DNA from: a virus
Strand: one strand, 5' to 3'
Virus record (IMG/VR): IMGVR_UViG_3300040806_002483
Span: 1 to 35,798 of that record
DNA: 35,798 bases
How positions within the stretch are numbered: the stretch's first letter is position 1; the number at the start of each line of letters is the position of its first letter. The notes beneath the pieces are model-generated. The model was not told the DNA's origin. It was given only the letters and a program-made list of their open reading frames with translations, and made no database searches. Position numbers and translations under genes: made by a program. Positions 11,516 through 30,900 of the stretch are shown in pieces.

Positions 11516-12131
11516 AACTTAGTGATATTCGACCATCACTTTCGTCATCTGTAACATTCTGTTCAACATAATGACTAACATGGCTAGGGAATAATACAAG
11601 CATTCCTTCTTTAGGTATAAACCAGTGAGAATTATTTGTTTGTGGATTATCTACTATAATGTCATTAGATGCGTAAATACTTTGAATATTATGCATACGA
11701 TCATATTCATTTACACTTCTATTAAAAACAATTCTTCCGCTATTACTGGGAACTTTGATATAATACACTCCGCTAACAAGCGCATTTGCATGTATATGCT
11801 CTCTATTGTATGTGTATTTTGTATTTAAATTATACCAATAACTAAAACTATTAATATCATGTGGAACTTGCCATCCATCTAGGATAGTACCAACCGACGG
11901 TTTAATAAAATTATCAAATAATTTACCTGTTTCGTCATAATCATACGGCATTGGGTAAATATCATTAGTTTGAAAGCCTCCAGCGTTGCTACGCTGTCGT
12001 CTGACATTAGGAACATTTTTATCTAAGTGATATACATGTTCACTTATCTTGGTGTTATCTATATCTTCAACATAAGTAACATAAGCAGATGTAACAAACA
12101 TTGGATGGTGTTCTAAATGTATATTGTTCAT
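11505..12131 (-). CDS. 2OG-Fe(II) oxygenase, 2OG-FeII_Oxy_5-like
   Basis: A 208-residue protein with TYNREHIHANALVSGVYYIKVP (H112-I-H114), SGRIVFNRS, EGMLVLFPSHVSHYV (H187) and GRISLSFNF (R201), the same His-x-His oxygenase type as the gene at 7849. It stands alone on the minus strand between two plus-strand halogenase blocks. It overlaps the upstream block tail to tail by 11 bp and is head to head with halogenase 3. There is no Shine-Dalgarno sequence. A consensus TATAAATA ends only 5 bases before the ATG, so a late transcript would start at about the initiation codon. An internal ATG (residue 11) has no better ribosome binding site. Confidence 0.85.
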   Translation of the reverse strand: MNNIHLEHHPMFVTSAYVTYVEDIDNTKISEHVYHLDKNVPNVRRQRSNAGGFQTNDIYPMPYDYDETGKLFDNFIKPSVGTILDGWQVPHDINSFSYWYNLNTKYTYNREHIHANALVSGVYYIKVPSNSGRIVFNRSVNEYDRMHNIQSIYASNDIIVDNPQTNNSHWFIPKEGMLVLFPSHVSHYVEQNVTDDESDGRISLSFNF

Positions 12132-13637: not shown

Positions 13638-14258
13638 TACTTGATTAAGTCTAAAAATATTAAAAAAATCATCGCTGTCTACAGACATTCCGTGTAAAAA
13701 ATATCCTGCATCAAACAGTATAACTCTATTAAATGTTCCTTCGAGTGTTTTAATTAATTTATATTTGTGTTTAGATCGCCATGGTTGATAATGTTCTGGA
13801 CCATCATAAGAATCATCTTCTAGTTGTTCATATAGATTTGTACCTTGATTAGTGGTTGGATTTAAATAAATTATTCCAATGTAACCTTCAAAATCTATAT
13901 GTGGTAACCAATAATAGTTTTTATAATCGTTAAAATCTTTATCTAAAAATTTAGTACAGTTAGTTACTACAATATCTCTATTAATTCCTACATAATGTTG
14001 TTTACAAATATTTGCTAATTCGTCTCCTACATATTCTACTCCAGTATCTTTAAAAGCATGTCTGTAATCTAAAAAATGCACACCGTTGTAACTAGGAGTA
14101 TCATGTTCTTTCCACAATTTAGGTGGTTCAGATGTTAATAAATGAGATACTAATTCGTCAGGATATTTATAAAAATTATCAACATAGTATATTTTACTAT
14201 CTTGGAATTCTTCCTCGGTTATAGTGTAGTTAGGATTTATTTCAAACTTGTTGTACAT
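13620..14258 (-). CDS. 2OG-Fe(II) oxygenase-like protein (DUF6445-like)
   Basis: A 212-residue protein with LPHIDFEGYIGIIYLNP (H120-I-D122), QGTNLYEQ, NRVILFDAGYFLHGMS (H189) and IFRLNQVLFF (R203). The order and spacing of these residues give a complete iron and 2OG site, and the overall pattern resembles DUF6445-type proteins as I recall them. An acidic and aromatic N-terminal region (EEEFQDSKIYYVDNFYKYPDEL) is typical of this type. It is the last gene of a five-gene minus-strand oxygenase operon, shares one base (TAATG) with the gene before it and overlaps halogenase 3 by 18 bp at the 3' ends. The substrate is unknown. Confidence 0.75.
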   Translation of the reverse strand: MYNKFEINPNYTITEEEFQDSKIYYVDNFYKYPDELVSHLLTSEPPKLWKEHDTPSYNGVHFLDYRHAFKDTGVEYVGDELANICKQHYVGINRDIVVTNCTKFLDKDFNDYKNYYWLPHIDFEGYIGIIYLNPTTNQGTNLYEQLEDDSYDGPEHYQPWRSKHKYKLIKTLEGTFNRVILFDAGYFLHGMSVDSDDFFNIFRLNQVLFFNP

Positions 14259-14842
14259 TAACCAAAATTCACTGCGATACTAACTCTCGGAGTTGTGTTG
14301 TTACAGGGTTCTACCATATGTCGCAAGTATGATCTAAAAATTAACAAAGATCCTTCTTCTGCAGCATATCCTATTCTTGTAAAACTCAACGGATTTTTTT
14401 CTTTAATGCTTTTAACTTGTAACATATCAGGTTCTTTTGGATCTTCAAATATTAATTTTCCCGATCCTTCAGGTGCTGCTACCCAATATACACAACTAAA
14501 AATAGCATTATTATGCGTATGAAATTCTTGAAATGTTCCTTGCTCATTAATGTTTAACCAAGCACCAGTAATTTTATATTTTGCAGTAGAACCGTGCATA
14601 CTAGCAAAGTTATGGCAATGGTCTTGTATATTATCTAACAACGGAAAAAATTTGCTGTCATTAGTAAGATCTAAAGTGTCATGTGTGTTATAAGTGTCAC
14701 CATACCATTCACTGCCGCCGTTAGGCACAGTTTTTCTTAATTCTAAACTATGGTTAAATAGATCTTTGTTTTGATCGCTTGTTAATAAATTAGTTTCCTT
14801 GTAAATTGCTACAGGAAACCACATTTCAACTTTTGGGGCCAT
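14258..14842 (-). CDS. 2OG-Fe(II) oxygenase, 2OG-FeII_Oxy_5-like
   Basis: Two ATGs, two codons apart, can start this gene (14848 and 14842). I choose 14842 because GAGAG lies 6 bases upstream of it but directly abuts the other. The 194-residue product has ITGAWLNINEQGTFQEFHTH (H108-T-H110), FSCVYWVAAPEGSGKLIFEDP, EGSLLIFRSYLRHMVEP (H175) and PRVSIAVNFG (R186), a textbook example of the His-x-His oxygenase type. The N-terminal VEMWFPVAIYKETN is also family-typical. It overlaps the upstream gene by 17 bp and the next by 1 bp, so it is within an operon. Confidence 0.87.
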   Translation of the reverse strand: MAPKVEMWFPVAIYKETNLLTSDQNKDLFNHSLELRKTVPNGGSEWYGDTYNTHDTLDLTNDSKFFPLLDNIQDHCHNFASMHGSTAKYKITGAWLNINEQGTFQEFHTHNNAIFSCVYWVAAPEGSGKLIFEDPKEPDMLQVKSIKEKNPLSFTRIGYAAEEGSLLIFRSYLRHMVEPCNNTTPRVSIAVNFG

Positions 14843-15482
14843 TATCATCTCTCATAGTTCTTACAGTTTTTACAACATCGTCAATATCTGCCCAGATGTT
14901 ATATGATACTGATATTCTGTCTTCTTGTGATTCGTTGCGTTCTACACTATGTTGTAACCACGATTCAAACATAATCATTTCACCTACTTTAGGTTCATAC
15001 TCAATATAATCATAATTATATTGATTTTCTCCATTTCTAATTCTTTCAAAAAATACATCACTTGCTCGCCTAGGTTCTAAAGGATTATGAAATTTTAAAT
15101 TGCCGCTTTTTTCAGGAACTTTTAGATACAATACACCGCTTACACATGCACCATAATGATCGTGTCTATTGAATAATGATCCAGGTTGGTTTAACTGTAG
15201 CCAACTAGTTATTTCAACATAACATTCAGGATTAAATCCTCTTAAATCTAAAAAACTTCTAACATGATTGTTTATTTCTTCAAGCAACGGAATTGCATTA
15301 ATTGTACCTAAAAAGTTTTTATTATCATGATAATATGTCGTTAATAATTCATTTTTATGTTTTCCGGCATCTGGCATTTTATTGGTAATGTAATCTTGTA
15401 CTTTTTTATCTGTATCTTGAATTACAGTTTCTGATAAATCTACTGTAACAATAGGTATTGGAAAGGCATGATCTATTCTCAT
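14826..15482 (-). CDS. 2OG-Fe(II) oxygenase, 2OG-FeII_Oxy_5-like
   Basis: A 218-residue protein with FPIPIVTVDL at the N-terminus, EITSWLQLNQPGSLFNRHDHYG (H107-D-H109), VSGVLYLKVPEKSGNLKFHNP, VGEMIMFESWLQHSVERN (H178) and EDRISVSYNIW (R189). All core residues of the His-x-His type are present. About 25 extra C-terminal residues (DIDDVVKTVRTMRDDNG) form a charged helix-like tail, and the DNA for that tail also encodes the start of the next gene. The ATG overlaps the preceding stop by 4 bp. It is the third gene of the five-gene operon. Confidence 0.87.
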   Translation of the reverse strand: MRIDHAFPIPIVTVDLSETVIQDTDKKVQDYITNKMPDAGKHKNELLTTYYHDNKNFLGTINAIPLLEEINNHVRSFLDLRGFNPECYVEITSWLQLNQPGSLFNRHDHYGACVSGVLYLKVPEKSGNLKFHNPLEPRRASDVFFERIRNGENQYNYDYIEYEPKVGEMIMFESWLQHSVERNESQEDRISVSYNIWADIDDVVKTVRTMRDDNGPKS

Positions 15483-16090
15483 TTGACCTCCGTATTTATA
15501 TTAAATATAACCCTGCGTTTTGACTCTATAGGATTACTAGCAGTATGATATTGTAACCCGTTTATAACAAGTAGTCTATTAGCTTTTGGTTCTACTGTAT
15601 CTTTAACTGTAAATGTATCATAAGAAATACCTAAATTCATACCTTGAGGTGTAGGAGTAAATTTTTCATTAAAAATTCTAGTATCTCCGTCTGAATCATT
15701 AACATAATAAATTAACGATAAGTGTGGAGTAAAATAATCTACATGTGGTAAATTGTAATTTTCCGTTGTATACCCGATTTTAGGATGTTTTATGCTCGCT
15801 CTAGATCTAATAATATCATTTTTAGTTATTCCTAATTTATTTTCTAATTGGATGTTAAAATCATCTAACTTTGTATATGTAAATGCTTCAATATTAGTTT
15901 CTCTATCAAAAAATAAATGAGCATACCCGTCAGTTTCAATTGCTTCTTTATTTTTTATATTATTATCTATAGGATCTAAAGATACATGCTCGATATAAAA
16001 CCAAGGAAAGTCGGCAGATAGTACCCAATCCTGTAATTTAGAAAATTGGGGGGTTGGCATAAAATTGTCTATAACTTCAAATTCTATCAT
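15479..16090 (-). CDS. 2OG-Fe(II) oxygenase (small phage type)
   Basis: A 203-residue protein with NLPHVDYFTPHLSLIYYVND (H116-V-D118), SDGDTRIF, RLLVINGLQYHTASNP (H182) and SKRRVIFNIN (R192/R193). The iron triad and 2OG arginine are complete. It is clearly related to the neighbour at 16092 (both share YYV.DSDGDT and ...YHTA..P....R.IINFN endings), so the pair arose by duplication. It begins one base after the stop of that neighbour. This type recurs in marine T4-like phages with unknown substrates. Confidence 0.86.
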   Translation of the reverse strand: MIEFEVIDNFMPTPQFSKLQDWVLSADFPWFYIEHVSLDPIDNNIKNKEAIETDGYAHLFFDRETNIEAFTYTKLDDFNIQLENKLGITKNDIIRSRASIKHPKIGYTTENYNLPHVDYFTPHLSLIYYVNDSDGDTRIFNEKFTPTPQGMNLGISYDTFTVKDTVEPKANRLLVINGLQYHTASNPIESKRRVIFNINTEVK

Positions 16091-16091
16091 G

Positions 16092-16649
16092 TTACTCTAC
16101 ATTAAAATTAATAATGCAACGCATATTGTCTTTAGGTTGCTGCGCTGTATGATAATACTTACCATTAAATATTACAGCTCTGCCCTGTTTTGGTGTAACA
16201 CGCATTACTACATCTTCAACTTTGTCAAGGTACGGTTTTCTTTCTTGTTCAAAATTTTTGTTTGTTATCAATGTGTCACCGTCTGAATCTATTACATAGT
16301 ATAGCACAACAAGATGTTCATAGTCGAGATCTATATGTAATAAATCTATTTCTTTATTATAAAAACTGGTACTTAACGGAAATTGTAAAAAACTTCTGCA
16401 CTGGATTACATTGTTAAATTGATAATTAACTGCTTCGGCACCCTTAATTGCAATTGGTTCAACTATGTCGTAATAAGGGCAATGTGTAGCACTATTCCAT
16501 CTATAATTATGTATAAGAGCCGGTGCATTTATATCAGAACCTGCACTAGTTACATCAGGTATAAATCCCCAAGGAAATTTAGAATTTAAAAGTGTTTCTT
16601 TCAATTCTTCTTGGTAAGCGGGCGAAATCAAATCATCTACGATAAGCAT
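16092..16649 (-). CDS. 2OG-Fe(II) oxygenase (small phage type)
   Basis: A 185-residue protein with DLLHIDLDYEHLVVLYYVID (H105-I-D107), SDGDTLITN, GRAVIFNGKYYHTAQQP (H167) and NMRCIINFNV (R177), giving a complete active site. It is the first gene of the minus-strand operon that runs through five oxygenases to 13620. There is no Shine-Dalgarno sequence; TATAAATA ends 5 bases before the ATG, so a late mRNA would be leaderless. No alternative Met occurs before residue 149, which supports the start. It is divergently arranged with halogenase 4. Confidence 0.86.
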   Translation of the reverse strand: MLIVDDLISPAYQEELKETLLNSKFPWGFIPDVTSAGSDINAPALIHNYRWNSATHCPYYDIVEPIAIKGAEAVNYQFNNVIQCRSFLQFPLSTSFYNKEIDLLHIDLDYEHLVVLYYVIDSDGDTLITNKNFEQERKPYLDKVEDVVMRVTPKQGRAVIFNGKYYHTAQQPKDNMRCIINFNVE

Positions 16650-16688
16650 AGTGATATTTATAAGTACACTTGTACAAAGGAAATATAA
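16650..16688. promoter_or_regulatory. 39-bp divergent spacer with late promoter (copy 2)
   Basis: The spacer holds TATAAATA on the minus strand (16655-16662) for the oxygenase operon, 5 bases from its ATG, and AAAGGA (16676-16681) 7 bases before the plus-strand ATG of halogenase 4. Its length and the position of GATATTTATA.GTA match the spacer at 12132-12170. A small inverted repeat GTACA-CT-TGTAC (16664-16675) sits before the ribosome binding site. Confidence 0.6.
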
Positions 16689-18167
16689 ATGAAAGTTAAA
16701 ACTCTTACTATTGTAGGCGGTGGTACTGCTGGATGGTTAACAGCAACATATCTTAGCCATAGACAACCACATATAAAAATTACTGTAGTTGACAAAGAAG
16801 TGCCAGAACCTATTGGTGTTGGAGAGGCTACACTTTTAACTTTCAGACCGTTTCTTGAGGAGGCAGGACTCCCTATTGAAGATTGGTTTTTAGAAATAAA
16901 AAGTGCGTATAAGTCGGGTATACTTTTTACAAATTGGCAAACTCCAGGTGAGGATATATGGCACCCTTTTTATAAAGGCAATGATCAAATTACAGAAAAA
17001 TGGAAATTATATGATCTTTACACGCACACCCAAGATTTAGATTTTAAAAAACATTGTCTAGCTTTTTATGAAAATAGTGTATATCATAATAGTGTAGATA
17101 TGACCGAATTAAACAGATATGCTGTACATATCGATTGCGGTAAGCTAGTTACTTATTTAAAAAACAAATTAAAAAATAAAGTACAACTAATTAATAGTGA
17201 AGTAATTAATATTGATTATAATAGTAACAATGGTATTGATTGCTTACATTTAAAAAATACAGATATAATAAAAAGCGATTTGTATATAGATTGCACCGGA
17301 TTTAAACAAATTCTAAGAAAAGATTGTAAAAGAATAGATTTAAGCAATCGACTATTTGTTAATACTGCCATTGCTGGTCATGTTCCGTACGAAAACAGAG
17401 ATAACGAACTTACTCCTTATGTAAAGTGTGATGCTGTAGATCATGGATGGGTTTGGAAAATTCCTGTACAAGATAGAATTGGTAGTGGTATGTTGTTCAA
17501 TAGGAATATAACAGATATAGATGACGCTAAAGGTTATTTTATAAAATATTGGAATAATAGAGTGGATAAAAATAACTTAAAAGTTATAAATTGGGATCCT
17601 TATTATAATGAAGATCAATGGCACGATAATGTAGTAAGCATAGGGTTAAGTGCAGGATTTATTGAACCGTTAGAAAGTAGCGGAGTTGCACTAATGACCT
17701 ATGCTATCGGTCAACTAAATGGTATTCTTAATGAAAATTATTATACTGAAAATGAAGTTACCTATTTTAATATCCAAATGAAAATTGTATTTGAAAATTG
17801 TGTAAACTTTGTAGCAATGCATTATGCAGAAAATAGTAGATCAACACCGTTTTGGAAATATGTTAAAGACTCATTCAATCCGAGTGAAGAAATGCAAAGT
17901 TACCTCGAAGACTTTAAAGATCCCAGTATATCATTGCCCTGGACTGCAAAATATAATACAATGTTCGGAGGTCCTAATTGGTCTATATTTTTAATACAAT
18001 TAGGTTATTCGTTGTCTAAAAAGAATTTAGATATAGATAGCGAGTTAGCAAGAAGTATAATTATAAAAAACTATATTGAATTTGAAAAATATAGACATTT
18101 AGACGGTCATCATCATAGTACCGAATTAGATAGGTTAAAAGAAATTAAAAAACATGGAATTAATTAA
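16689..18167 (+). CDS. Flavin-dependent tryptophan halogenase-like protein 4
   Basis: A 492-residue protein with FAD motif LTIVGGGTAGW (6-16), GVGEATLL (43-50, the most PrnA/RebH-like version in the window), catalytic K75 in SAYKSGILFTNW, WxWxIP intact as W254-V-W256-K-I-P259, and IEPLESSG with E329 followed by S330. YIDCTGF (199-205) is the second flavin motif. Every residue I can check for halogenation is in place. AAAGGA lies 7 bases upstream of the ATG. The gene opens the last plus-strand block and overlaps the next gene by 14 bp. The electron donor (a flavin reductase) is not encoded nearby, and the substrate is unknown. Confidence 0.93.
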   Translation: MKVKTLTIVGGGTAGWLTATYLSHRQPHIKITVVDKEVPEPIGVGEATLLTFRPFLEEAGLPIEDWFLEIKSAYKSGILFTNWQTPGEDIWHPFYKGNDQITEKWKLYDLYTHTQDLDFKKHCLAFYENSVYHNSVDMTELNRYAVHIDCGKLVTYLKNKLKNKVQLINSEVINIDYNSNNGIDCLHLKNTDIIKSDLYIDCTGFKQILRKDCKRIDLSNRLFVNTAIAGHVPYENRDNELTPYVKCDAVDHGWVWKIPVQDRIGSGMLFNRNITDIDDAKGYFIKYWNNRVDKNNLKVINWDPYYNEDQWHDNVVSIGLSAGFIEPLESSGVALMTYAIGQLNGILNENYYTENEVTYFNIQMKIVFENCVNFVAMHYAENSRSTPFWKYVKDSFNPSEEMQSYLEDFKDPSISLPWTAKYNTMFGGPNWSIFLIQLGYSLSKKNLDIDSELARSIIIKNYIEFEKYRHLDGHHHSTELDRLKEIKKHGIN

Positions 18168-18879
18168 ACATTCTTTCATAACTAGCAGCGAATGGGATAT
18201 TGATCATCCAAAATGTATTAAAGATTTAGTTGATAACTTTAGTGTTATAGAGCCCTTGCAAAAAAAATACATTCCTGATCGTAAGGGTAATATAGTATTA
18301 AAATGTCCTGCTCATACCGATTTTTTAAAAAATGTTTTTGTATTCTATGCTCCGTTTGATTTAACTATAGAAATAGATATTAATTCTAAAACTGATGAAG
18401 TAAAAATAGCATCCAATAACTTAACACAAGAACAATTTAATTACCTTATTGATACAAGATTTTTGTTTAATGATCGAAGAGGAAAAAATCCTTATCCTAT
18501 GATAGGTATCGATTGGCTTAATATATTTCAAGCAGAAAGCTCTATTATTATGCAAATGTTACCTGCATTTATGCATTACAATGAATTTACACAAAAAACT
18601 ACTCTATTGCCCGGCGAATATGATATTTCAAAATGGACTAGGCCAGCAGAAATAGTGTTTGAATGTAAAAATTTAAAAGACACTATTAATATTAAAAAAG
18701 GTGATGCAATAGCATATTTTAAATTCTACTGTAATGATACTGTTAAAGTAGAACAACAAGATTGTCCGTGGGAAGAAATAAAGTTGTGTAATAGTATACG
18801 CAATGCAGATACATTTCGTCCTTTAAAAGAAAGATATGAAAAATTAGCAGAAATAAAAGGCTGTCCATATGACTACTAA
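18154..18879 (+). CDS. Unrecognised protein between two halogenases
   Basis: A 241-residue soluble protein with no signal peptide or membrane segment. I do not recognise a characterised family. It looks beta-rich, with alternating hydrophobic stretches VFVFYAPFDLTIEID, LPAFMHYNEFTQKTTLLPG, WTRPAEIVFECKN and KKGDAIAYFKFYCND. The last two (an R-P...F/E strand, then a KGDA.AYFKF strand) give a cupin- or jelly-roll-like impression, but without a conserved metal triad. Proteins of this shape occur in marine T4-like phages, as far as I recall. It overlaps halogenase 4 by 14 bp and halogenase 5 by 11 bp, so it is translated with them. A substrate carrier, partner or tailoring accessory are possible roles. 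Confidence 0.6.
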   Translation: MELIKHSFITSSEWDIDHPKCIKDLVDNFSVIEPLQKKYIPDRKGNIVLKCPAHTDFLKNVFVFYAPFDLTIEIDINSKTDEVKIASNNLTQEQFNYLIDTRFLFNDRRGKNPYPMIGIDWLNIFQAESSIIMQMLPAFMHYNEFTQKTTLLPGEYDISKWTRPAEIVFECKNLKDTINIKKGDAIAYFKFYCNDTVKVEQQDCPWEEIKLCNSIRNADTFRPLKERYEKLAEIKGCPYDY

Positions 18880-20437
18880 TGTAAAAAAAATTATCATTGT
18901 AGGCGGAGGAAGTGCTGGATGGATGACTGCTGCAACACTTGCTTCTCAACTTAAAAATGTAACTATTAAAGTTATAGAAAGTCCTAATATACCAACTGTT
19001 GGTGTTGGAGAAAGCACAGTAGGCGGAGTTCGAGCTTGGCTAAGAATGGTAGGTATTCAAGATCATGATTTTGTCAAACACACAGATGCAAGTTACAAAC
19101 TTGCTATTAAGTTTAACAATTTTTACACAAAAGATAGCGGTTCATGGTACTATCCTTTTGGCGAGCCTGTATTTGAAAACTGTATGCATAAAAGAGATGA
19201 TTGGTTTATAAAAAAGACATTGTATCCAGATACTCCTAGCAGTGATTATGTAGACTGTTATTACCCGCAAATGGCACTTGTAAATCAAAATAGAATGGTA
19301 GTAGATCATCCTGATCTAAAAGGATTTGATTTTTACAATGATACTGCATTTCACTTTGATGCAGCTAAACTAGGCATTTGGCTTAGAGATGTATTTTGCA
19401 AAAACTTAGGTGTAGAACATATTTCCGCAGAAGTAGTAGACTGCTTACAAGATCGCATCGGAATACAAAAAATCATACTAGATAACGGTGCTGAGCACAC
19501 TGCTGATTTATTTGTTGATTGCACAGGATTTTCAAGTTTGCTTTTAGGTAAAACACTCAATGTTCCATTTAATAGCTACGAACACATATTGCCTAATAAT
19601 CGTGCTTGGGCTACTCGTGTGCAATATACAGATAAAGAATCTCAACTAGACAGTGTAACAGACTGTACTGCATTAGATAATGGTTGGGTGTGGAATATTC
19701 CTTTGTGGAGCAGAATAGGTACAGGTTATGTTTATAGTGATAAATTTATAAATCCAGAAGATGCTAAAAAAGATTTTATTGCTCATTTGCAGACTAAAGG
19801 CTATAATACTGATAACTGTGAGTTTAAAGACATTCAAATGCGAGTAGGAATTCACGAAAAATTATGGGTTAAGAATGTTGTAGCAATTGGATTAAGTGCA
19901 GCATTTATAGAACCTTTAGAAAGCACGGGTTTGCTTACTACACACGATTTTGCTATAAATTTAGTTAGAATCTTAACAAGAAACAACAGTTATAGTCAGT
20001 GGGATAGAGATGAATTTAATCTGGTATGCGAAGATACTTTTAATTATTGGTCTAGTTTTGTAAGTATGCACTATGCACTTAGTCATAGAAATGATAGTGA
20101 ATATTGGTGTGCTGCTACTGAAAAAAGTTACACTAGTTTATTACCTAAGTTAAGTAATGTGCAAACACAAGGGCTATATTTTCAATCTATATATCAAAAG
20201 AATTTTGTTGATTTTTTACAAGACGATGATGGTGTAAATTGTTTAGCAGCAGGAATGAATTGGAATGCAAATGATGTTACTGTGCTCAATAAAATTTTTC
20301 CTAAGCATATAGATAAAAAACAAGAGTTTGCTAAAATGATAGATAATTTAGAATCTAGAAAACAAAAATGGAACAGTGCTGTGCAATCTGTTCCATCTTT
20401 AAATCAATTTCTTTTAGAAAACTTTTATAAAGACTAG
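18869..20437 (+). CDS. Flavin-dependent tryptophan halogenase-like protein 5
   Basis: A 522-residue protein, the longest of the five. FAD motif IIIVGGGSAGW (8-18), GVGESTVGG (45-53), catalytic K77 in DASYKLAIKFNNF, FVDCTGF (215-221), WxWxIP intact as W273-V-W275-N-I-P278, and IEPLESTG with E351-S-T-G354, identical to the PrnA chloride-site sequence. An insertion after the lysine segment (about residues 90-160, GSWYYPFGEP... and the tyrosine-rich YVDCYYPQM) resembles the substrate-lid region of bacterial tryptophan halogenases, so this may be the most conventional member. AAAAGG lies just before the ATG, within the preceding gene. Its 3' end overlaps the convergent adhesin gene by 4 bp. Confidence 0.94.
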   Translation: MTTNVKKIIIVGGGSAGWMTAATLASQLKNVTIKVIESPNIPTVGVGESTVGGVRAWLRMVGIQDHDFVKHTDASYKLAIKFNNFYTKDSGSWYYPFGEPVFENCMHKRDDWFIKKTLYPDTPSSDYVDCYYPQMALVNQNRMVVDHPDLKGFDFYNDTAFHFDAAKLGIWLRDVFCKNLGVEHISAEVVDCLQDRIGIQKIILDNGAEHTADLFVDCTGFSSLLLGKTLNVPFNSYEHILPNNRAWATRVQYTDKESQLDSVTDCTALDNGWVWNIPLWSRIGTGYVYSDKFINPEDAKKDFIAHLQTKGYNTDNCEFKDIQMRVGIHEKLWVKNVVAIGLSAAFIEPLESTGLLTTHDFAINLVRILTRNNSYSQWDRDEFNLVCEDTFNYWSSFVSMHYALSHRNDSEYWCAATEKSYTSLLPKLSNVQTQGLYFQSIYQKNFVDFLQDDDGVNCLAAGMNWNANDVTVLNKIFPKHIDKKQEFAKMIDNLESRKQKWNSAVQSVPSLNQFLLENFYKD

Positions 20438-21570
20438 TATCTTACAATAACTACGCCGTTACCGCCTGGGTATCCATGTTGGCCGCCGCCGCCTCCACCG
20501 CCAGTGTGTGATCCACCTGCACCACCTCTGGCTGTTGGAAATCCGTCTTGTCCTGTGTTAAGACTTTGTCCGCCACCTTGACCAATTTTTCTAGGGCCGC
20601 CGTAAGGACCACTGTGGTGGAAACTGCCACCGCCGCCGCCCCCGATGCCACCTGTGTTACCGTTAACATTCCAACCTAGGTGTCCGCCGCCAGCGCCGCC
20701 TCCTCCAAAGTATAATGCACCGCCTAGTAGATCTGTTGCACGACCTGCTCCGCCTGAAATTTGATTTCCACGGAAACTTCCTCTATAGTTTTGACGACCG
20801 TCAGGTGCACTAGCACCGCCACCACCGGCGCCACCACCGCCACCACCTTGGTGACTGTTTTCTCCGTCAACATTAAATCTAACACCACTGCCGCCCGGAT
20901 AGCCTTGACCGTCTGTTCCTCTTCCGCCTAAGTGTCTACGACGACTACCATCGGCATCACTGTTTGATCCACCACCGCCGGATCCTCCCGAACGTCCTGA
21001 CGAGTGTCCGTTGTCATAACCTTGGGGATTAGATCCTCTCCAAGAGCCTCCGCCGCCACCGCCTTGAGCAGTTATAGTTGAAAATACTGAGTTGCCTCCG
21101 TTGCCTCCAGCAATCGTAGGTGATCCTCCACCGCCGTTTCCTCCACGACCTTCTCCGCCCACTGTAACATTATAGCCTGATCCCGCACTTACAGGAAAGC
21201 TTCTATTAAATACTACACCACCTGCGCCTCCGGCGCCTGCCCAATCATAACCGCTGGCGCCACCACCACCAACAACCATAACTTGAACATTTCCGCTAAA
21301 AGAAGGTGTAAATGTATGATTGCCTGTAGTTGTAAAGATATGCACAATACCGTGATCTGTATAGTTGATAGTTTGTCCGCCTGTTCCTACAGTTCCTTGC
21401 GAATATCCTGTTACAGGTCTCCAAGCTGAACCATCATAAAATTCTAATGTATTTTGGCTGTTTGCTCCGTTAAATCTTAATTTTGCTGTACCTGTTGTGT
21501 TAGATAAATTTTGATCTGGTAACTCTACAGCATTTGTTGAATTAAGAGTTGTATTTTTTAAAGTTGCCAT
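20434..21570 (-). CDS. Glycine-rich tail adhesin paralogue 1
   Basis: A 378-residue protein. The first 70 residues contain a fibre motif, RFNGANSQNTLEFYDGSAWRPVTGYSQG. The rest is a Gly-rich domain (GGGGASGYDWAGAGGAGG, VTVGGEGRGGNGGGG and so on) ending GNGVVIVRY. Such domains form polyglycine-II sandwiches in the tip adhesin of phage S16 (gp38), where loops between glycine strands bind the receptor. Conserved blocks shared with the next two genes are SRRR..GG.G..GQG.PGGSGVRFN and F.RSFPVSAGSG. The variable loops are Trp/Tyr/His-rich (HLGWNVNGN, HHSGPYGG). The SD-like GAGGT is coded by the last codons of the gene upstream. It is the last gene of a three-paralogue array and the one closest to the halogenases. 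Confidence 0.85.
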   Translation of the reverse strand: MATLKNTTLNSTNAVELPDQNLSNTTGTAKLRFNGANSQNTLEFYDGSAWRPVTGYSQGTVGTGGQTINYTDHGIVHIFTTTGNHTFTPSFSGNVQVMVVGGGGASGYDWAGAGGAGGVVFNRSFPVSAGSGYNVTVGGEGRGGNGGGGSPTIAGGNGGNSVFSTITAQGGGGGGSWRGSNPQGYDNGHSSGRSGGSGGGGSNSDADGSRRRHLGGRGTDGQGYPGGSGVRFNVDGENSHQGGGGGGAGGGGASAPDGRQNYRGSFRGNQISGGAGRATDLLGGALYFGGGGAGGGHLGWNVNGNTGGIGGGGGGSFHHSGPYGGPRKIGQGGGQSLNTGQDGFPTARGGAGGSHTGGGGGGGQHGYPGGNGVVIVRY

Positions 21571-22707
21571 TTAGTACCTCACTATCACTATTCCAGTGCC
21601 TCCAATTTTAGCTGAACCATATGCTCCACCCGATCCGCTACCTGTGTTTGCACCTGCTGTACCGCCTTCATAACCGCTAGAGTTTACTCCTCCACCGTTG
21701 TTGTATGACATGCCGCCACCAGTACTACTCTTACCTCCAGGAGGTCTTCTTGGCTGTCCGTGGTTCATAGTACCACCTCCGCCTCCACCAATACCACCTG
21801 ATGAGCCGTGTGTTTCGTTACCAACATGGCATGCGCCACCTCCACCGCCTGCCCAGTATAGTGTATATCCTAGTATATCATTTGCTGCGCCTGGGCCACC
21901 TGATCCATTACGACCTTCGTGGCAATCATCTTCTGAACTCCATCCAGGTCCACCAGCGCCACCTCCGCCGCCGGCTTTGTGTGAATCTTCGCTTTGTCTA
22001 TTATATCTTATACCTGAACCTCCAGGAAATCCTTCTCCTGTTACTCCACGACCGCCCATGTTAGTGTTACGACTATCGTTTGGTCCAGTGTGTCCATTTG
22101 ATCCAGCACCTGAAGAAGCTGTACAGCCTCCGCCTCCTGAGCCACCTGCTCGAGCTGCGTTGCCGTTCCATGATCCTCCTCCTCCGCCGCCATCAGCAGT
22201 AAGTGAACCAAATACACTGTTTCCGCCTTGGTAAGCAGGAGGACTTTGTCCATAGTTATTAGCAGCACCGCCGTTGCCAACAGTAACATTTATTCCACTT
22301 CCGCTACTTACCGGAAACGCTCTATTAAAGATTAGGCCGCCTGCGCCTCCGCCGCCACCTAAGTGTCCACCACCGCTTGCTCCGCCGCCTACTACTAAAA
22401 CTTCAACTGTTCCGCTGAACTGAGGAGTAAATGTATGGTTACCTACACTTGTAAAAATATGAATCACGCCGCCTTGCTTTCCTGCATGGCTTGGATTATA
22501 TAATATAGTTTGTCCGCCTGATCCAATAGCTCCTTTACTTACACCTGTAATAGGACGCCAGGCGCCGTTATCATAAAATTCTAATAAATTGTTAGAATTA
22601 TTAACTCTCATCATACCAGTAGTTGGTGATGGTCTTTGTGCTGTATTACCTACAGGTAATGTTAAAAATCCTGTATCATTAATTACTGTATCTTTTAAAT
22701 CTGCCAT
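21571..22707 (-). CDS. Glycine-rich tail adhesin paralogue 2
   Basis: A 378-residue paralogue of its two neighbours, with no gap to the one downstream. It has the N-terminal LPVGNTAQRPSPTTGMMRVN and LLEFYDNGAWRPITG, then IHIFTSVGNHTFTPQFSGTVEVLVVGGG, then a long Gly-rich region and GTGIVIVRY at the end. Compared with paralogue 3 it has different loops (HVGNETHGSSGG, HGQPRRPPGG and a Cys in GGGGCTASSGAG), as expected for hypervariable receptor-binding segments. GAGGT just upstream of the ATG acts as ribosome binding site and lies beyond the RY codons of the upstream gene. Confidence 0.85.
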   Translation of the reverse strand: MADLKDTVINDTGFLTLPVGNTAQRPSPTTGMMRVNNSNNLLEFYDNGAWRPITGVSKGAIGSGGQTILYNPSHAGKQGGVIHIFTSVGNHTFTPQFSGTVEVLVVGGGASGGGHLGGGGGAGGLIFNRAFPVSSGSGINVTVGNGGAANNYGQSPPAYQGGNSVFGSLTADGGGGGGSWNGNAARAGGSGGGGCTASSGAGSNGHTGPNDSRNTNMGGRGVTGEGFPGGSGIRYNRQSEDSHKAGGGGGAGGPGWSSEDDCHEGRNGSGGPGAANDILGYTLYWAGGGGGACHVGNETHGSSGGIGGGGGGTMNHGQPRRPPGGKSSTGGGMSYNNGGGVNSSGYEGGTAGANTGSGSGGAYGSAKIGGTGIVIVRY

Positions 22708-22710
22708 GTT

Positions 22711-23775
22711 TTAATACCTCACTACCACAATACCTGAGCCACCGCCACCATGAGCTGATCCTCCGTGCGCACCGCCACCACCGGTGTTAGCTGCACCATC
22801 TCCGCCATATCTTGCATGACCGTCGTTATTACTTGCAGGCTGTCCTTTGTTTAAACTTTGTCCGCCGCCTCTGCCGTTACCAACTGTTGGATATCTGGGA
22901 ACATAGTGAGCAGCACCGCCACCACCTCCACCGACTCCTCCGTCGCCTCCACCACCATCACAGATGTGTGGACCTGATGCGCCACCTCCACCCCAATATA
23001 GAGTGTCACCTAATATGTCTGATGCAGCTCCTGGTCCGCCATGTGTTGGTTGTCCTTGATTTTCATCTTGGCTGTCAAGTCCAGGGCCGCCAGCGCCACC
23101 GCCACCGCCACCATTATGTGTGTTTTCGCCATCGTCGTTAAATCTTACTCCGCTACCGCCTGGAAAACCTTGTCCTGTAACACCTAACCCGCCTGGCTCT
23201 CTGCGTCTACTTCCGTCTGCACTAGAGTTTCCACCGCCTCCGCCGGATCCGCCACCATTAGCATCACCGCCATCCCACCAGCCTCCATAACCGCCACCTT
23301 GAGCAGTAATAGTTGAAAATACAGAGTTACTACCGTTTGATCTTGACCCTCGTGGTGCTCCTGCTCCTACTGTAACACCATAGTTAGATCCTGCGCTTAC
23401 TGGGAATGATCTATTGAAAATCATTCCTCCGCCGCCACCTCCGCCGGTCCAGCCGCCGGCTGTGCCGCCGCCTCCGCCTACTATTAATACCTGTACATAA
23501 CCACTAAAAGCAGGTGTAAATGTATGATTGCCTGTAGATGTAAACATGTGTACAATACTATTGCCTTTTTTAAGAATCTGTTGGCCGCCGGTTCCTATAC
23601 TTCCTTGACTGTATCCAGTAACTGGTCTCCAGTTTGATCCATCGTAATACTCTAATAATCCTATACTAGTATTATATCGTATCATACCAGAAGCAGGTGT
23701 TCCAGGTCTTTCAGCTGTTGTTCCTGTCGGTAAAGTTATGTCTTCGAACGATGTTTGGAGATTAAACTGGGCCAT
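22711..23775 (-). CDS. Glycine-rich tail adhesin paralogue 3
   Basis: A 354-residue first member of the array, with LPTGTTAERPGTPASGMIRYN and LLEYYDGSNWRPVTGYSQG, then VHMFTSTGNHTFTPAFSGYVQVLIVGGGGG, Gly-rich repeats and GSGIVVVRY. The long GGGGG runs separate loops such as DENQGQPTHGG, HICDGGGGDGG and HYVPRYPTVGN. AAGGAAAA, coded by the C-terminal KGK of the S74 fibre gene, serves as ribosome binding site. The array follows the S74-type fibre protein in the same operon, which suits a fibre-tip adhesin. Glycine-rich domain assignment (PF21722 from memory) is good; the receptor is unknown. Confidence 0.85.
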   Translation of the reverse strand: MAQFNLQTSFEDITLPTGTTAERPGTPASGMIRYNTSIGLLEYYDGSNWRPVTGYSQGSIGTGGQQILKKGNSIVHMFTSTGNHTFTPAFSGYVQVLIVGGGGGTAGGWTGGGGGGGMIFNRSFPVSAGSNYGVTVGAGAPRGSRSNGSNSVFSTITAQGGGYGGWWDGGDANGGGSGGGGGNSSADGSRRREPGGLGVTGQGFPGGSGVRFNDDGENTHNGGGGGGAGGPGLDSQDENQGQPTHGGPGAASDILGDTLYWGGGGASGPHICDGGGGDGGVGGGGGGAAHYVPRYPTVGNGRGGGQSLNKGQPASNNDGHARYGGDGAANTGGGGAHGGSAHGGGGSGIVVVRY

Positions 23776-24582
23776 TTATTTTCCTTTTAGCATGTCTATT
23801 TCTGTCTTAATACTCTTAACGGCTTCGATTAAATATGCACTTAGTCTTGAATAATAAATTGACTGTGGGTTTCCATTTGCATCTTTTTTAACTACATTTG
23901 GAATTATTTCGTTTACTTCTTCAGCAATTAATCCTGCTTCGTCTATAGCACTGCCATCTTTACGATCATAAATTTTGCCAGCAAGTTGTACAATACTATC
24001 AAGTGCATTTTCAATAGGAGATATATTTTCTTTTAACGCAATACTTGAAGTTTCTGTAATGCTTCCTGCACTCATATTATTTGTAAACGAGGCTGAGCCT
24101 CCAGTTACTTGTCCAGATACTGTAAAGTTTCCTGTGCTTGGTTGAAAACTCATTTTTGAACTACTAACACTTAATGCTGTTGTTTCACCGCTGTTTGAAC
24201 TTAATATAGCGGGATAATATGTACTTGTATCAGCAAGCTGATCATTAATATCTAGTGCTGGTGATGTCCAGCTTAGTGTTCCAGAACCATTGGTTTGTAA
24301 AACATAACCATTAGTTTGTCCAGTTGCTGGAAATGTGTAAGTTACATCACTTGTAACTGATGCAGGACTTTTAAATCCTACAAAATGCGAACTATCACTG
24401 TCCATCAATTTAAGAGTTTCATTATCCTTAATTTGTATATGAGAGTTGATTAATACTTCGCCAGTTCCGCTTGGAGTTAATGTAATGTTCTGGTTAGCAA
24501 CAACCCCCGTAACTGTGTTTTGGAAAGCTGATAGCTGTCCAAGTATCGGGCCGCCTACTACACCTGTTGTTATCCTACGCAT
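23776..24582 (-). CDS. Tail-fibre protein with S74 intramolecular chaperone domain
   Basis: A 268-residue protein. The N-terminal 170 residues are a Ser/Thr/Gly-rich fibre segment (TLTPSGTGEVLINSHIQIKDNETLKLMDSDSS, then TNGYVLQTNGSGTLSWTSP). From about residue 175 comes a peptidase S74-type domain: TSSIALKENISPIENAL, GLIAEEVNEIIPNV, SIYYSRLSAYLIEAVKSIKTEIDML. The Ser-Lys dyad expected for self-cleavage is S179 and K184 in the S-x3-L-K pattern. The domain trimerises the fibre and is usually cut off afterwards; whether cleavage occurs here is not known. AAGGAG precedes the ATG. Confidence 0.88.
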   Translation of the reverse strand: MRRITTGVVGGPILGQLSAFQNTVTGVVANQNITLTPSGTGEVLINSHIQIKDNETLKLMDSDSSHFVGFKSPASVTSDVTYTFPATGQTNGYVLQTNGSGTLSWTSPALDINDQLADTSTYYPAILSSNSGETTALSVSSSKMSFQPSTGNFTVSGQVTGGSASFTNNMSAGSITETSSIALKENISPIENALDSIVQLAGKIYDRKDGSAIDEAGLIAEEVNEIIPNVVKKDANGNPQSIYYSRLSAYLIEAVKSIKTEIDMLKGK

Positions 24583-24592
24583 CTATAACTCC

Positions 24593-24916
24593 TTATGTTG
24601 TTGCTGTTTCAATACCATACACCATAACAGTTACATCTGTACTGTTTGCATATGCTACAACATTCTTTCCTGCTTGTAATACTACACCACTTCTTTCTAC
24701 TGTACCGTTAGCTACTAGCTCTGTGTCAAATTCTATCCACTCAGCTGCTGTTGGTGTACCACTAGCTGATAGTGCAATTCTAATATCTCTAGTTGCCGTT
24801 GCTCTATTTGTTATGTTTATTGTAACAATAGCAAAATTATCCGACGGAACTGTATATATAGTTGTGTTAGTAGCAGCGGTTAAGTCTGTTGGTGTGCCTA
24901 ATATTCCTGTTGCCAT
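24593..24916 (-). CDS. Small virion protein (beta-sandwich, marine phage type)
   Basis: A 107-residue protein, ATGILGTPTDLTAATNTTIYTVPS followed by alternating beta strands (AIVTINITNRATATRDIRIALSA, VERSGVVLQAGKNVVAYANSTDVTVMVYG). I recognise the overall pattern as a small structural protein common beside tail-fibre genes of marine T4-like phages, probably a jelly-roll decoration or fibre-linked subunit; the exact role is unassigned. AGGAGAA lies 8 bases before the ATG, inside or just after the stop region of the giant fibre gene. Confidence 0.6.
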   Translation of the reverse strand: MATGILGTPTDLTAATNTTIYTVPSDNFAIVTINITNRATATRDIRIALSASGTPTAAEWIEFDTELVANGTVERSGVVLQAGKNVVAYANSTDVTVMVYGIETATT

Positions 24917-24926
24917 TTATTTTCTC

Positions 24927-27900
24927 CTATCTTAAAAAGTAATTATATGCTAATGGTAAACCTAACACACTCTTAGTAAAGTTTACATTTGCTTTTATAT
25001 TTATCGTTGCGCCGCTGACCGTTGTAATTTGTGTGCTATTAATGAAAATATCACCCGCTGTTACACTGTTAACAACTAGTGACGCACCACCGCCACCAAT
25101 CTGTGCTTCAATATATGTTTTAATTGCTCGCTGCGTTGGAACAATACTGTCACTGTTTGCAGTAAAGAATGGATCAGTACTAAATTCAGTAACACTTGCT
25201 GAGTTACCTCCTAGTGTAACTTCACCTAGTGATAGTTCTTGTAGACCTGCAATGTTAAACGCATCAGCATTCAATGTAGCAACACCAGTTGCCTGCTCAA
25301 TACTAAACAAGTCACCAACTCTAAAGTTACCATCTTGGTCAGTAGCAGTGAAGAACACTCGTCCACCGTCTGACGAAACAGTTTCATTTAGCTGTGAAGG
25401 ATCATTTACAGGATCTCCATACACACTGTTAGGATAGTTAGTATCATCAAAGTTACCAGTACCGATATCTAAGAAATCGTGTCCTGTTAGACGTACCTGA
25501 CTAAATCTAATACGCATTGTTACTGGATCATTATTTGGAACAGCATCTTCAATTTCCATCGATGGACTTAGTTGCAAGAATGCAGTGTAAGATCCATCTT
25601 TAGTTCCTACTCTACTAACAACATTAACAAGTTTGAATATAGTTCCTGGTAAACTGTCAAATACAACATTTGAACCATTTACTGGTACTGATGATAACTG
25701 TCTAACAGCAACAAATTGTCCATCTTGTAAGAAGTTAGCAAAACCATTACTGTTATCAGCATTAACTTCGGCACTAGCTTGAATAAATCCACTACCTCTT
25801 GCAATAAATGTTGGTTGTGCAAGCACTCCGTCATTTAATCTAACAGTAAATAATGCATCGTCAATATTGTTAGGATCTGTTACTGTCATTGTAGGTGGTG
25901 TAGACCCGTATCCTGATCCAGGCTCTGAAATTCTAACTTCAAACAGTTTTTCACTTGCAACAGCAGCTCTTGCTTTTGTAGTACATCCTAGTTTAAACCT
26001 ACCAGCAGCAGTTGTTGTACCTGTCTGTATAGCAACAAATACAGGCTCTCTGTCTGGATTACCAAATGTTATTGCACTTAATCCACCCGTGTATGTTGTT
26101 GCAGTAATTGCATATGGCGTTGGCCAATACACACCGTCTTCGGAATATGCAAGCGAATTAGTGTCAGTTGTTGTTACAGCAAATGTTCCTTGTCCGTAAG
26201 CAATTCTCACAGGAGTAGTCGAACCGTCTGTTGTAATTGTAGTTGCTGTAAATTCTGTTCCATCTAAACTATATGCCCCAGCATCTGTGTCATCACAAAT
26301 AGCAACAAATCTTCCTTTGCCGTAAGCAATGTCAACCCAATTATCAGTAGTTGGCATTCCAGCTGCAACTGTTGTCCAACTTGCTCCACCGTCAGTTGAG
26401 TATGCCATTTCTTGGCTTCCGCCTTTAATTGCTACCCATTTCTTAGCACCAAATGCAAGTGCTGTATATCCTGTGCTTGGTAATGCATTTGCAACTGTTG
26501 TCCAACTTATTCCGCCATCGTCTGAATAAGCAATATCTCGATCATTATCAGCAATCAACATAAATCTACCTGTACTTGCATTTATTTGACCAAATGCAAG
26601 ATCACATGTGCTTGTTGCAGACAATGCCGGTTGAACGCCGGGTGCAGACCAAGTTCCGGATAGTCCTGTTAGACTATAGTTTATTGCTGTAGCACTAGCA
26701 GTAATACCTGCAGCTACAGCATAACTTTGTTTAAATGTACTCGAACCATCATCAATTAATCCACTTTCAAATGCTTTCCAAGTTAAACTTGTAGCTAAAG
26801 TATTTGTTATCCAAGTAGTACCATCAATTGAACTTTGTCCTGTTGTGCCACTATCCGGTAATGCAACAAAATATCCTATTCTACCATAACCACTAAAGTC
26901 AAATTCTTCAACAGCACCTGTTGCTGAATTGACTGTAGTAATAGTAATTGTAATATCATTTGTTGTTGTTGCTCCACCTAAACTTGTACCCGGAATTGTT
27001 ATTGTATCTAATCTTGTGTATCCAGTGCCGCCCGAATTTAATGATATGTAATATTTGCTACCGTTTCTTGTTACATCAAAAGTAGCACCTACTCCGTCGC
27101 TTTGAGTTGTTACTGCAACATTGCTGTATTGTGCAGATGTTTCTACAAAGCCAACTTCTGGCCAAACATCACTAGCAACTGTTGTAGTTGTATCCGATCT
27201 GCTTGGTGCTGTAAATGATAGTCTTGGCTCAATTAAGTATATTGAACTACTATTTGGAGATTCAAATACTGTTCCAGGAACAACATGATCCCAACCTGCT
27301 GTGCCATCTGATTCTTTTACAACAGTTGCAACTTTTGATCCAGAGTTATATGTATCAATAATACCAAACAACCCTACTCCTGCACCCGATGTAATATAAA
27401 GTTTCATACCTGGGTAAGCAGTACTTGAGTTACCGTCTGTAGCGGCAATTGTTAGGCTTGTTGAATTACCTGTTTGCGCAGTGTTTGTTATAACTAAGTA
27501 TCCTGTACCACCTGCTACTGCGTCTGGGTTTCCAGTTGAATCATCAACTTCAATAATTCTTGTTTGATTAACTGCTTCGTCACGGAATTCTTCCATAAGA
27601 AGCTCTTCACTGTCGCCTGCTCCAAATATTTGTACCTGTGCTTCTGTATAATCGTTACCAGCATGACTATATTCTAGTTGTAATATTTCATTTACTGCAT
27701 CTGTATATACATTTGCTATAACAGCATTATACTGTTTTTCATTATCTACAATAGCTGTTACAGGAGTTTCATCAGCATCAACACCTTCGGCAACACTACC
27801 AAACTTACCGTAAGAGTTGTTACCGTTTGTAGCTCTCATTCTGCCGCCTGATTCACATAAGTAACCTACATGCGAATAATATGTAAACACTGACACCAGT

Positions 27901-30900
27901 TCGCCTCGACCGTTGTTTAGAATCCAAGCACCAATACCGTCTGATATAACCTGTGTAAAGTCGTTACTAACAATTGAATCGTTACCACCATTGTGTAGAG
28001 CACCATCAATCTTTTGACCAATTGCTGCATAACCAAATGTAGTACAGTTCTGTACATATGGTGATCTTGCGGTAATCCAAGCGCGAGTATCATCTGGTCC
28101 CCAACCTGGATCAAGTGATGCATAAGCACCAGCTGTTGGACGCTGTGTTCCAAATGCATTTGCTGGTCCTAAATCGCCTTGTAAACCTTCCATTGTTTGT
28201 AGTCTTAATCCAGTGCCGTTGCGTAGGTAGTAGAAATCTTCTTCTTGTGAACCTATTATGCTATTAACATAATATCTTGCACCTAATCTAGTTCTATATG
28301 TTGCTGGGAAGTAGAGTGAAACATCAAATCCAAATTTATTGTATGTTCTCCACTGTTGTTGCGGCCACTGTAAATCCCATTTAATTGCATCAATGTGTTC
28401 TCTTACATCTCTTGCACACAATGCACGATTGTATTCATAACCTTTCAGAACTTTAAAACCTTGTCCCCAATCAGTTAGTGTTTTTACAGCACCATACTGT
28501 GTGTCACTTATAGAAAAGTTTGTATCATTTATAATTTGTTTAACATAATAAGTTCGATCATCTATAAGACCTGCGTTTTCTACAGAGTTACTACTATCAT
28601 CGCCGTCTTGGAATTTAATTGGCATACCTTCAAATAACCAACTAGTATCACTAATTATAATTTGACCATCAGTAGAAAAATCAGTTGTAATTACTCCATT
28701 AACAACATCTTGAAATTTATCATCAACATATGCTAAAAGTTCGTCAACAATAAATTCTTTGTTTAGTTCCAATTGGCGTACAGCATTATAAACTTCTACA
28801 TCTTCAGTTTGTGTGTTACTACCTTCAGCACTTCCACTCCATATAATATCTTGTACCCAGTCCCATCCTGTATTGATGCCTGCGATTGCTATAGAATTCC
28901 CTCCAACGCTTGCAACTAATTGCGTTCTAACATATTCGTTAGCAGCAAGTGTTGCAGTTTTTTGATTCCCAACAATCTTATTTGCAGGTTTTCTAAGATA
29001 ACTTAATCCTGCATTTATACTAGCAAAGTTAGTTCCTAGCATAAAATCATATCTTGCAGCATCAATTAATAATCCAATATCTCTTGAACATTTTGCTTGA
29101 TTATATTTAAAGTCACTATATGTTGTATTAATATACTGAACAGTATCAACAATAACACCTTCTAAATCACTAAAAATGTTGCTATGTGCATTTTGATATT
29201 CTGCATCTGCCCAAGTAATACTTGGATAAACTGGTGCTGGTAAACTGTCTAAATTGCCAGCTGTAATTGCTGCTGTAATGATATCAATCTTAGCATCAAG
29301 TTCCGCTTCTTCAGTTGCAGTAGCAGGAGTTCCTGGCTTGGTCTGAATTTCTGTATGACCGCTTTGTGCTGTAACAGTTCCTTCTTGAATAATAGTTCCT
29401 ATGATACTTTTAGCATGATTGTATGCCGCAACAGTTTCAACTTCGTTACCATAAAGTTGAGAAGTTCCGTCTTCGAAATAACTTTCAGCAATTCTAGTTG
29501 TTGCTTGTGTACCACCATAAAGAATGTCGTAGCAAAGTGCATCAACTATATAACCTACATCCCTGTAACACTTACCTTCGTTGTAAACTAGTGCTCCGTA
29601 GGTATTATTAACATATTCTACAGTATCTGCTTGAATAAATGTTTTGTTTGCTACAAGGTTATCTAGTGCATCTACTCTATTTTGATCTACACCTACTGGG
29701 TTTGGAAAACTTAATGCGTTTTCTGCACTTAATCCGTTGTTGATCATATCAACAATTTCATTGTATGCTGTGCTAATTCTAGTGCTAGAATTTGAAGATC
29801 CGCCTGCAGATGAACCGTCATCTGTAACACTTTCTTTTAGTAAATCTCTAGCATTTCTAATTGCACCAACTGTCTCTGTACGCTGTGCTTGTAAGTTATA
29901 AGCATTGTTAGGTCGATTATAAGATCTACCATTAAAAACAGCATTATAGTTTGTTCCTAGTGCAACATCATATGCAGTGTCTGTTATAATATTTCTTAAG
30001 TCTCTACGACATTTAGCACTATTATATTGGAAGCTGCCAAAATGTCCATTGATAAAGTCTATTGTATTTTCTTGTACTGTAGATTTAATATTTTGTAATG
30101 CTGTGCTTGCATTAACTAATGTATCGTCAACACTGCTAACACTAGGATAAGTTATAGTTTCAGTCCCTGTACCGTTAGTTACAATATCAATTATATTAGT
30201 CATCAAACTATTAATAGTATTCGCTGCTGCAACAGATCCTTCCTTACCAGATGTAATCTGAGTTACTGTAGTATTCAGTGCAGGATTTACTGTAGTATTT
30301 CTACTAATACTTTGTAGTATTGTTTTTAAATAACCGTATGCAGCAAGTGTAGCAGTTTTCTCGCTCGAATTAATTTGTAAATTAGTTCCTTCCCAATATG
30401 CTTCACCTGCTTTAACTGACTGCCAGTTGCCGCCATAGGTTAAATCATAAGAAATAGCATCAATAATAAATCCAACATCTTGTTTACATTTTGTTTTACT
30501 ATAAGCAACACTAGAATAATTAGTTGTAATATATGCAATTACTTCTGCTTGTATAAATTCTTTGTTAAGTTTTACAGTATCTCTAGCATAACCGTAGTTA
30601 GGGTCAGACATATCCCAGGCCTTAGTTAAAGTAGCTTCAACTTTATTGCCTAATCCTATATCAACTCTTCTTCTAATAGTTCTTGCAAGTCTTTTAACAG
30701 CATTTTTTGGACCGTCTGTTTCAGCATATGGCCACGAAGTTGTTTGTGTTTCTGTATTACCCGTTGTTGGAGTAACACTTACACCCGAAACAACATCGTC
30801 TATAACTTCTTCAAGTCTTGATAAACTATGATATGTGTAATTAAAATCTGTTGTAGGAGTTAGAGCAGAGTTACTGGCTTTTCTAGGCTGTACATTAGTA

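Follow-up and report, generated by a model that had tools for sequence, protein, structure and literature searches.

The window described here is the whole of IMG/VR virus record IMGVR_UViG_3300040806_002483 (35.8 kb; 35,798 nucleotides, nt), from a marine cyanophage-like virus. Its subject is a tandem triplet of glycine-rich genes, G3, G2 and G1, that exactly fill positions 20434-23775 as complete, intact, ATG-started open reading frames (ORFs). They close a minus-strand fibre gene run that encodes, in order, an 864-amino-acid (aa) tail protein, a 647-aa tail protein, a 2055-aa tail protein, a 107-aa protein, an S74-terminated fibre, and then G3, G2 and G1. G1 is convergent with a halogenase gene, HAL18869, and overlaps it by 4 nt. 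All three proteins score above the Pfam cut-off of 24.3 bits for Gly_rich_2 (PF21722). G3 has an N-terminal module (residues ~1-65), followed by TNF-like strands and a glycine-rich domain (~72-354); identity to G3 is 56% for G2 and 60% for G1. An initial annotation of this DNA, made from the letters alone, described three tandem glycine-rich adhesin paralogues beside modifying enzymes, with a common frame and differing loops. That description holds: the N-terminal module and glycine scaffold are common to G1-G3, the differences lie in loops and indels, and the arrangement recurs in related viruses. Coordinates of these and other features are collected in Table 1.

AlphaFold2 models were made of G3 (predicted local distance difference test, pLDDT, 67.6; predicted template modelling score, pTM, 0.66) and G1 (pLDDT 64.2, pTM 0.68); in both the first 60 residues are of low confidence and mostly beta or coil. 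The first Foldseek match in the Protein Data Bank (PDB) was in each case the Pam3 fibre 7YPX (E 2.5e-4 for G3 and 4.2e-4 for G1). In VIA-align comparisons with the Pam3 fibre, G3 reached Z 11.3 (169 residues aligned), level with the Bxb1 tail tip at 11.5, and G1 reached Z 14.9 (177 residues aligned; root mean square deviation 2.7); the next structural matches were ALK/LTK glycine-rich domains, and unrelated folds reached about 5 or less. Because the Pam3 fibre is the first Foldseek match and its Z scores lie well above those of unrelated folds, the family of G1-G3 is, on these models, Pam3-like by fold. Searches of PDB sequences with G1-G3 gave chance hits only.

Pam3 gp24 (PDB 7YPX/7YFW), the fibre tip of a myocyanophage, carries a TNF-like and a glycine-rich tip domain as the models of G1 and G3 do; it is trimeric and was detected in virions (PMC9608196). 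It differs from the window in being a single gene with an alpha-helical N-terminal shaft and a dedicated tail fibre assembly (TFA)-type chaperone, gp25, whereas the window has three paralogues, an apparently different N-terminal module and a halogenase/oxygenase cluster alongside. No TFA-type chaperone gene adjoins G1-G3, the nearest tail assembly chaperone (PF16778) being at 4607-5050. The Bxb1 tail tip glycine-rich protein (9D93, Z 11-13) and the ALK/LTK glycine-rich domains (Z 7-10) have the same general glycine-rich fold, though Bxb1 belongs to a different virus class and ALK/LTK are eukaryotic receptors; we know of no halogenase link for either.

The initial annotation had likened these proteins to S16-type tip adhesins. 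Salmonella phage S16 gp38 (PDB 6F45) does share a polyglycine scaffold with protruding loops, and G3 lies directly after the S74-terminated fibre gene, mirroring the S16 gp37-gp38 order (PF13884 is present both in 23776-24582 and in S16 gp37). Membership of the gp38 family by sequence was rejected: neither PF05268 nor PF21721 matched G1-G3 at E 1, nor anything in the records of relatives, with an S16 control at 246 bits. The gp38 structure 6F45, whose fold combines a beta-helix with a three-layer PGII sandwich, is not among the structural matches listed for G3 and G1, which does not by itself exclude it. What survives of the comparison is the tail-tip, adhesin-like character, from the Pam3 fold match and the position after the S74 fibre gene, and G1-G3 are very probably tail-tip proteins. 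S16 gp38 is moreover single and has hypervariable loops (PMC12892980), whereas the loops of G1-G3 are conserved within each paralogue.

The same G3, G2, G1 order and the enzyme cluster are found in the seven nearest IMG/VR relatives that reach this region (L001-L007), as far as contig ends allow, and every contig covering the region retains all three paralogues; the triplet is therefore not a chance arrangement. Since L007 breaks off within G3 and its G1 and G2 are the same as those of L006, the set represents six independent lineages. Each paralogue forms one group (support 100/99 or better) in a maximum-likelihood tree of 21 sequences, and on this basis the triplication is judged to be old. 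Columns that distinguish the paralogues are 73-79% conserved within each of them (0.73-0.79 at the paralogue-specific loop columns), so a comparison of loop diversity among relatives finds no hypervariability. Overall, ratios of nonsynonymous to synonymous substitution (dN/dS) are 0.04-0.19, and at the loop positions specific to a paralogue they are 0.08-0.28; synonymous change is high, and the values are approximate because it is near saturation. Purifying selection acts on these loops, in contrast to those of hypervariable adhesins. The most invariant non-glycine columns of the glycine-rich domain are Trp (8/8) and His (15/18), compared with Ala (14/60) and Ser (19/72). L006/L007 is the only lineage without HAL18869, and there G1 has diverged furthest (61% identity, versus at least 70% elsewhere), a single case.

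Tandem glycine-rich genes also occur in phage isolates. In S-WAM1, S-SZBM1 and P-RSM6 each N-terminal module is specific to its position (75-90% among phages at the same position, 50-58% between the modules of one phage), and the glycine-rich domains are 87-90% alike within one phage, as alike as or more alike than their positional counterparts elsewhere (83-88%). Homogenised glycine-rich domains with distinct N-terminal modules (L059, L060, L061) suggest gene conversion and point to a shared function of the glycine-rich domains with distinct attachment in these three phages. The paralogues remain distinct in the window group and in S-RIM44 and Sf-FP1. These data bear on a further proposal of the initial annotation, that three copies suggest alternative receptors. 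Rapid evolution of the three as alternative adhesins that widen the host range or switch it, in the manner of the gp38 hypervariable loops, would agree with the general fold, which is that of receptor-binding tips, and with loops that differ among paralogues. The proposal is weakened because the loops are conserved within paralogues across contigs, with dN/dS well below 1; retention of all three genes in every contig covering the region, and glycine-rich domains that are homogenised rather than diversified in the S-WAM1 group, likewise speak against fast-evolving adhesins, which we regard as highly improbable.

The enzyme adjoining G1 is predicted to be a VirX1-type flavin halogenase. VirX1 (PDB 6QGM) is the best of 30 PDB matches to HAL18869 (1.4e-95; ~35% identity) and its closest solved structure; HAL18869 falls in the VirX1 clade (support 98/99), and its alignment contains GGGSAG (for GxGxxG), the catalytic residues K77 and E348, and WVWNIP (for WxWxIP). 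VirX1 is CPUG_00131 of phage Syn10 and has the same kind of neighbour genes: two tandem glycine-rich genes (CPUG_00135 and CPUG_00134) lie just ahead of the two Syn10 halogenases. A small gene and then the second halogenase separate them from VirX1.

Whole-record scans of 23 phages, 18 bearing halogenases and five halogenase-free controls, found glycine-rich genes 0.5-1.7 kb from a halogenase in 9/18 of the halogenase-bearing isolates (Sf-CH11, S-RIM44, P-TIM40, Syn10, S-CREM1, Sf-FP1, S-WAM1, S-SZBM1 and P-RSM6). The copies flank the enzymes in Sf-CH11; in each of the other eight isolates two or three PF21722 genes stand in tandem at 0.5-0.7 kb from a VirX1-clade halogenase, and 2-oxoglutarate (2OG) oxygenases are nearby. 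In Syn10-type loci the whole run has one direction and other N-terminal modules, whereas the five halogenases of the window are arranged in runs that converge and diverge. The 15 adjacent halogenases tested belong without exception to a single clade (98/99), which includes only two non-adjacent ones, and the remaining halogenases lie outside it. Each of the five controls has exactly one glycine-rich gene, a contrast that is only suggestive because the controls were chosen by similarity to the G3 N-terminal module. Among IMG/VR virus contigs, with a glycine-rich ORF defined as at least 30% Gly over 150 aa, such ORFs were found in 30/77 VirX1-type loci, 6/80 PrnA-type loci (Fisher p 2.7e-6) and 4/80 gp17 loci (p 1.4e-7); these p-values are optimistic, as contigs are related and vary in length. 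Further triplets were found in L108, L125, L148 and L137. Phages of this group commonly have two or three glycine-rich genes in tandem, so a triplet is no special feature of the window virus.

Table 1. Coordinates of features in the window, the glycine-rich triplet first
Feature	Coordinates	Strand	Basis or remark
G3, first glycine-rich protein (putative tip), 354 aa	22711..23775	-	PF21722 40.8 bits; AlphaFold2 model resembles Pam3 fibre; orthologues in L001-L006
G2, second glycine-rich paralogue, 378 aa	21571..22707	-	PF21722 47.4 bits; own fully supported orthologous group
G1, third glycine-rich paralogue, 378 aa	20434..21570	-	PF21722 32.4 bits; AlphaFold2 model resembles Pam3 fibre
HAL18869, predicted flavin-dependent halogenase, VirX1 clade, adjoins G1	18869..20437	+	PF04820 340 bits; PDB match VirX1 6QGM; tree
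Fibre protein with C-terminal S74 intramolecular chaperone, adjoins G3 on its upstream side	23776..24582	-	PF13884 42.3 bits
107-aa protein, tail-fibre PHROG, same run	24593..24916	-	phrog_11338; kept in L001-L006 and L008
T2055, 2055-aa tail fibre/virion structural protein, upstream in run	24927..31094	-	tail fibre PHROGs
T647, 647-aa tail protein, seven CBM5/12 repeats; late-promoter-like GATAAATA 26 nt upstream	31094..33037	-	PF02839 x7
241-aa companion between two halogenases, no known family	18154..18879	+	conserved in L001-L007
Second halogenase	16689..18167	+	PF04820 281 bits
Third halogenase (HAL12171)	12171..13637	+	PF04820 321 bits
Fourth halogenase (HAL10016)	10016..11515	+	PF04820 299 bits
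Fifth halogenase	8490..10019	+	PF04820 323 bits
Run of five oxygenase-type genes; TATAAATA 13 nt upstream of the first	13620..16649	-	PF13759/PF13640, DUF6445
2OG-Fe(II) oxygenase; TATAAATA just upstream	11505..12131	-	PF13759 69 bits
Two genes preceding the halogenases: 2OG-FeII_Oxy_5 (7849-8490) and a weaker relative (7257-7856)	7257..8490	+	PF13759; PHROG only
Two 2OG-FeII_Oxy_3 genes	5729..7158	-	PF13640 53.7 and 33.2 bits

We propose that G1, G2 and G3 would be three distinct, fixed receptor-binding tip proteins of a single tail-fibre apparatus, co-expressed with the upstream S74-terminated fibre gene. Each would combine an N-terminal module for attachment with a TNF-like beta-sandwich and a lattice rich in glycine, as in trimeric Pam3 gp24, and each would display its own conserved set of loops. 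The VirX1-clade halogenase and some of the 2OG-Fe(II) oxygenases would act on them before or during assembly, with halogenation at aromatic or His residues and hydroxylation at Asn, Asp, Pro or His in the loops; such modification would tune receptor contact or stability. There is a precedent in flavin halogenases acting on Trp of ribosomal peptides and proteins, such as SrpI (PMC10858898, PMC10286304). That the neighbouring halogenase and oxygenases modify G1-G3 has in our judgement about an even chance, on the basis of conserved linkage, not chemistry. A more specific form, in which the three paralogues make a 1:1:1 heterotrimeric tip with loops halogenated and hydroxylated by paralogue-specific enzymes, as the native substrates of VirX1-type viral halogenases, and in which the virus would thus apply post-translational chemistry to the tip that binds its receptor, seems unlikely; a hetero-oligomeric tip as such is possible.

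The initial annotation had also singled out the loops as candidate substrates for being rich in His, Trp, Tyr and Asn. That richness is real in absolute terms (His 3.1%, Trp 1.2%, Tyr 3.1% and Asn 6.3% of the glycine-rich domain), with no excess over other phage glycine-rich proteins. Candidacy as substrates gains from the conserved adjacency to VirX1-clade halogenases; loop residues as its mark fail the composition test. Because glycine-rich proteins beside halogenases are not richer in modifiable residues than others, substrate status rests on genomic linkage.

G1-G3 may instead be tips that are mere neighbours of the enzymes in a tail hot-spot, with modification aimed elsewhere in the fibre module (at the S74 fibre, the 2055-aa protein or the protein with carbohydrate-binding module, CBM, repeats) or at a host surface component. 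Large fibre genes are indeed also close by in the window, and halogenase presence is not tracked by loop composition. Those fibre genes, however, vary between lineages, T647 being absent from L002-L005 and T2055 only partly alignable, and the glycine-rich triplet is constant; glycine-rich enrichment is, further, confined to one halogenase clade and is not seen around structural gp17. We consider such other targets somewhat unlikely.

Expression bears on a further alternative. The T4-type late promoter motif NATAAATA lies no more than 60 nt upstream of a start in 7/11 occurrences (p 1.5e-9), preceding the oxygenase run, other oxygenases, the tail assembly chaperone, GroES and two tail genes; none was found directly ahead of the window halogenases. 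The cyanophage-type late promoter CTAAATA was tried and rejected, its frequency in the window being below chance and the T4-type motif being enriched before starts instead. Late expression of the oxygenases together with the tail genes thus has modest support, and only modest because NATAAATA is not seen at called ORF starts in most relatives. The enzymes have been proposed in the cyanophage literature to be auxiliary metabolic genes (PMC3037559; PMC9964418), which here would mean a halotryptophan or antibiotic halogenase, and 2OG oxygenases for DNA repair or 2-oxoglutarate/nitrogen control, all unrelated to the tips; some halogenases and many oxygenases are located elsewhere in genomes, as this would have it. 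It is improbable given that one halogenase clade is tightly and repeatedly linked to tip genes, that the cluster is without pathway genes, that late-promoter motifs precede the oxygenase run, and that VirX1 has a large, open active site, with no native substrate assigned in a review (PMC8407142).

Several observations weigh against modified tips. Confidence in the G3 and G1 models is modest (pLDDT 68 and 64). His/Trp/Tyr content is not higher in glycine-rich proteins near halogenases than in others (p 0.49 and 0.28), and L108-type triplets, which are halogenase-adjacent, have few His, Trp or Tyr (few aromatic) residues. Halogenases of other clades lie far from glycine-rich genes or in phages that have none, and five halogenases with about ten oxygenases exceed the obvious need of three proteins. 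We know of no enzyme of this group with a demonstrated action on a phage protein. The S-SZBM1 virion proteome lists none of the glycine-rich proteins 48-50, and proteins 51-54, encoded directly upstream in the same run, were detected (PMC9146016 Table 1). Of the 26 tryptic peptides of suitable length in proteins 48-50, 23 include Trp, Tyr, His or Pro. The non-detection would fit a low copy number, proteins that are not part of the virion, or modified peptides that a standard search overlooks.

Because the same pairing with halogenases recurs in many other phages, the putative glycine-rich tip proteins are the strongest candidates to date for the substrates that viral halogenases use in nature. 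For VirX1, a marine phage halogenase of known structure, a conserved, clade-specific neighbour provides a concrete substrate candidate, and the many cyanophage 2OG-Fe(II) oxygenases have, in the sources consulted, been explained only by guesses (DNA repair, protein modification or metabolism). None of the open-access papers found puts forward a link between tip proteins and halogenase modification; if correct, it would to our knowledge be the first case in which halogenases encoded by phages chemically modify phage receptor-binding proteins.

Some glycine-rich genes of other phages depart from the usual form. The middle paralogue of P-TIM40 (L038:9150-10739) has an extra ~250-aa C-terminal region that is fibrinogen-like by eye. 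One S-CREM1 copy (L042:9826-10600) is broken by in-frame stops (five TAA) beside an intact copy. S-SSM7 (L062:3875-4663) has three tandem glycine-rich matches, of which the one inspected is strikingly Cys-rich, with the nearest halogenase 7 kb off.

The enzyme cluster of the window (5.7-20.4 kb) comprises five halogenases, up to eleven oxygenase-type genes and the 241-aa companion. Catalytic Lys and Glu are kept in 5/5 halogenases (8490-20437); WxWxIP is replaced by WVWRGP in HAL10016 and WMFKIP in HAL12171. Six oxygenase-type genes score above a 2OG-Fe(II) Pfam cut-off, and the others are weaker or PHROG-only apart from 13620-14258, which is DUF6445-like and just above the cut-off for DUF6445. 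The other members of its run (16092, 15479, 14826 and 14258) are of 2OG-Fe(II) type, two of the four below the Pfam cut-off. The companion was compared with the gene that follows VirX1; hhalign gave a probability of only 9%, and no relationship is claimed. A 217-aa gene at 5079-5732 bears the PHROG label ferrochelatase, with no match in Pfam, and ferrochelatase-annotated genes also stand inside other cyanophage oxygenase arrays (L035, L040).

A nucleotide search of the window against phage records gave no matches. GroEL and GroES genes adjoin the tail region (2556-4533), with a late-promoter-like motif ahead of GroES, and the closest phage-record matches of the GroEL are from phages other than cyanophages. 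T647 is present in L001 and L008 and not in L002-L005; because CBM5/12 repeats are chitin/carbohydrate-binding, this distribution suggests lineage-specific carbohydrate binding.

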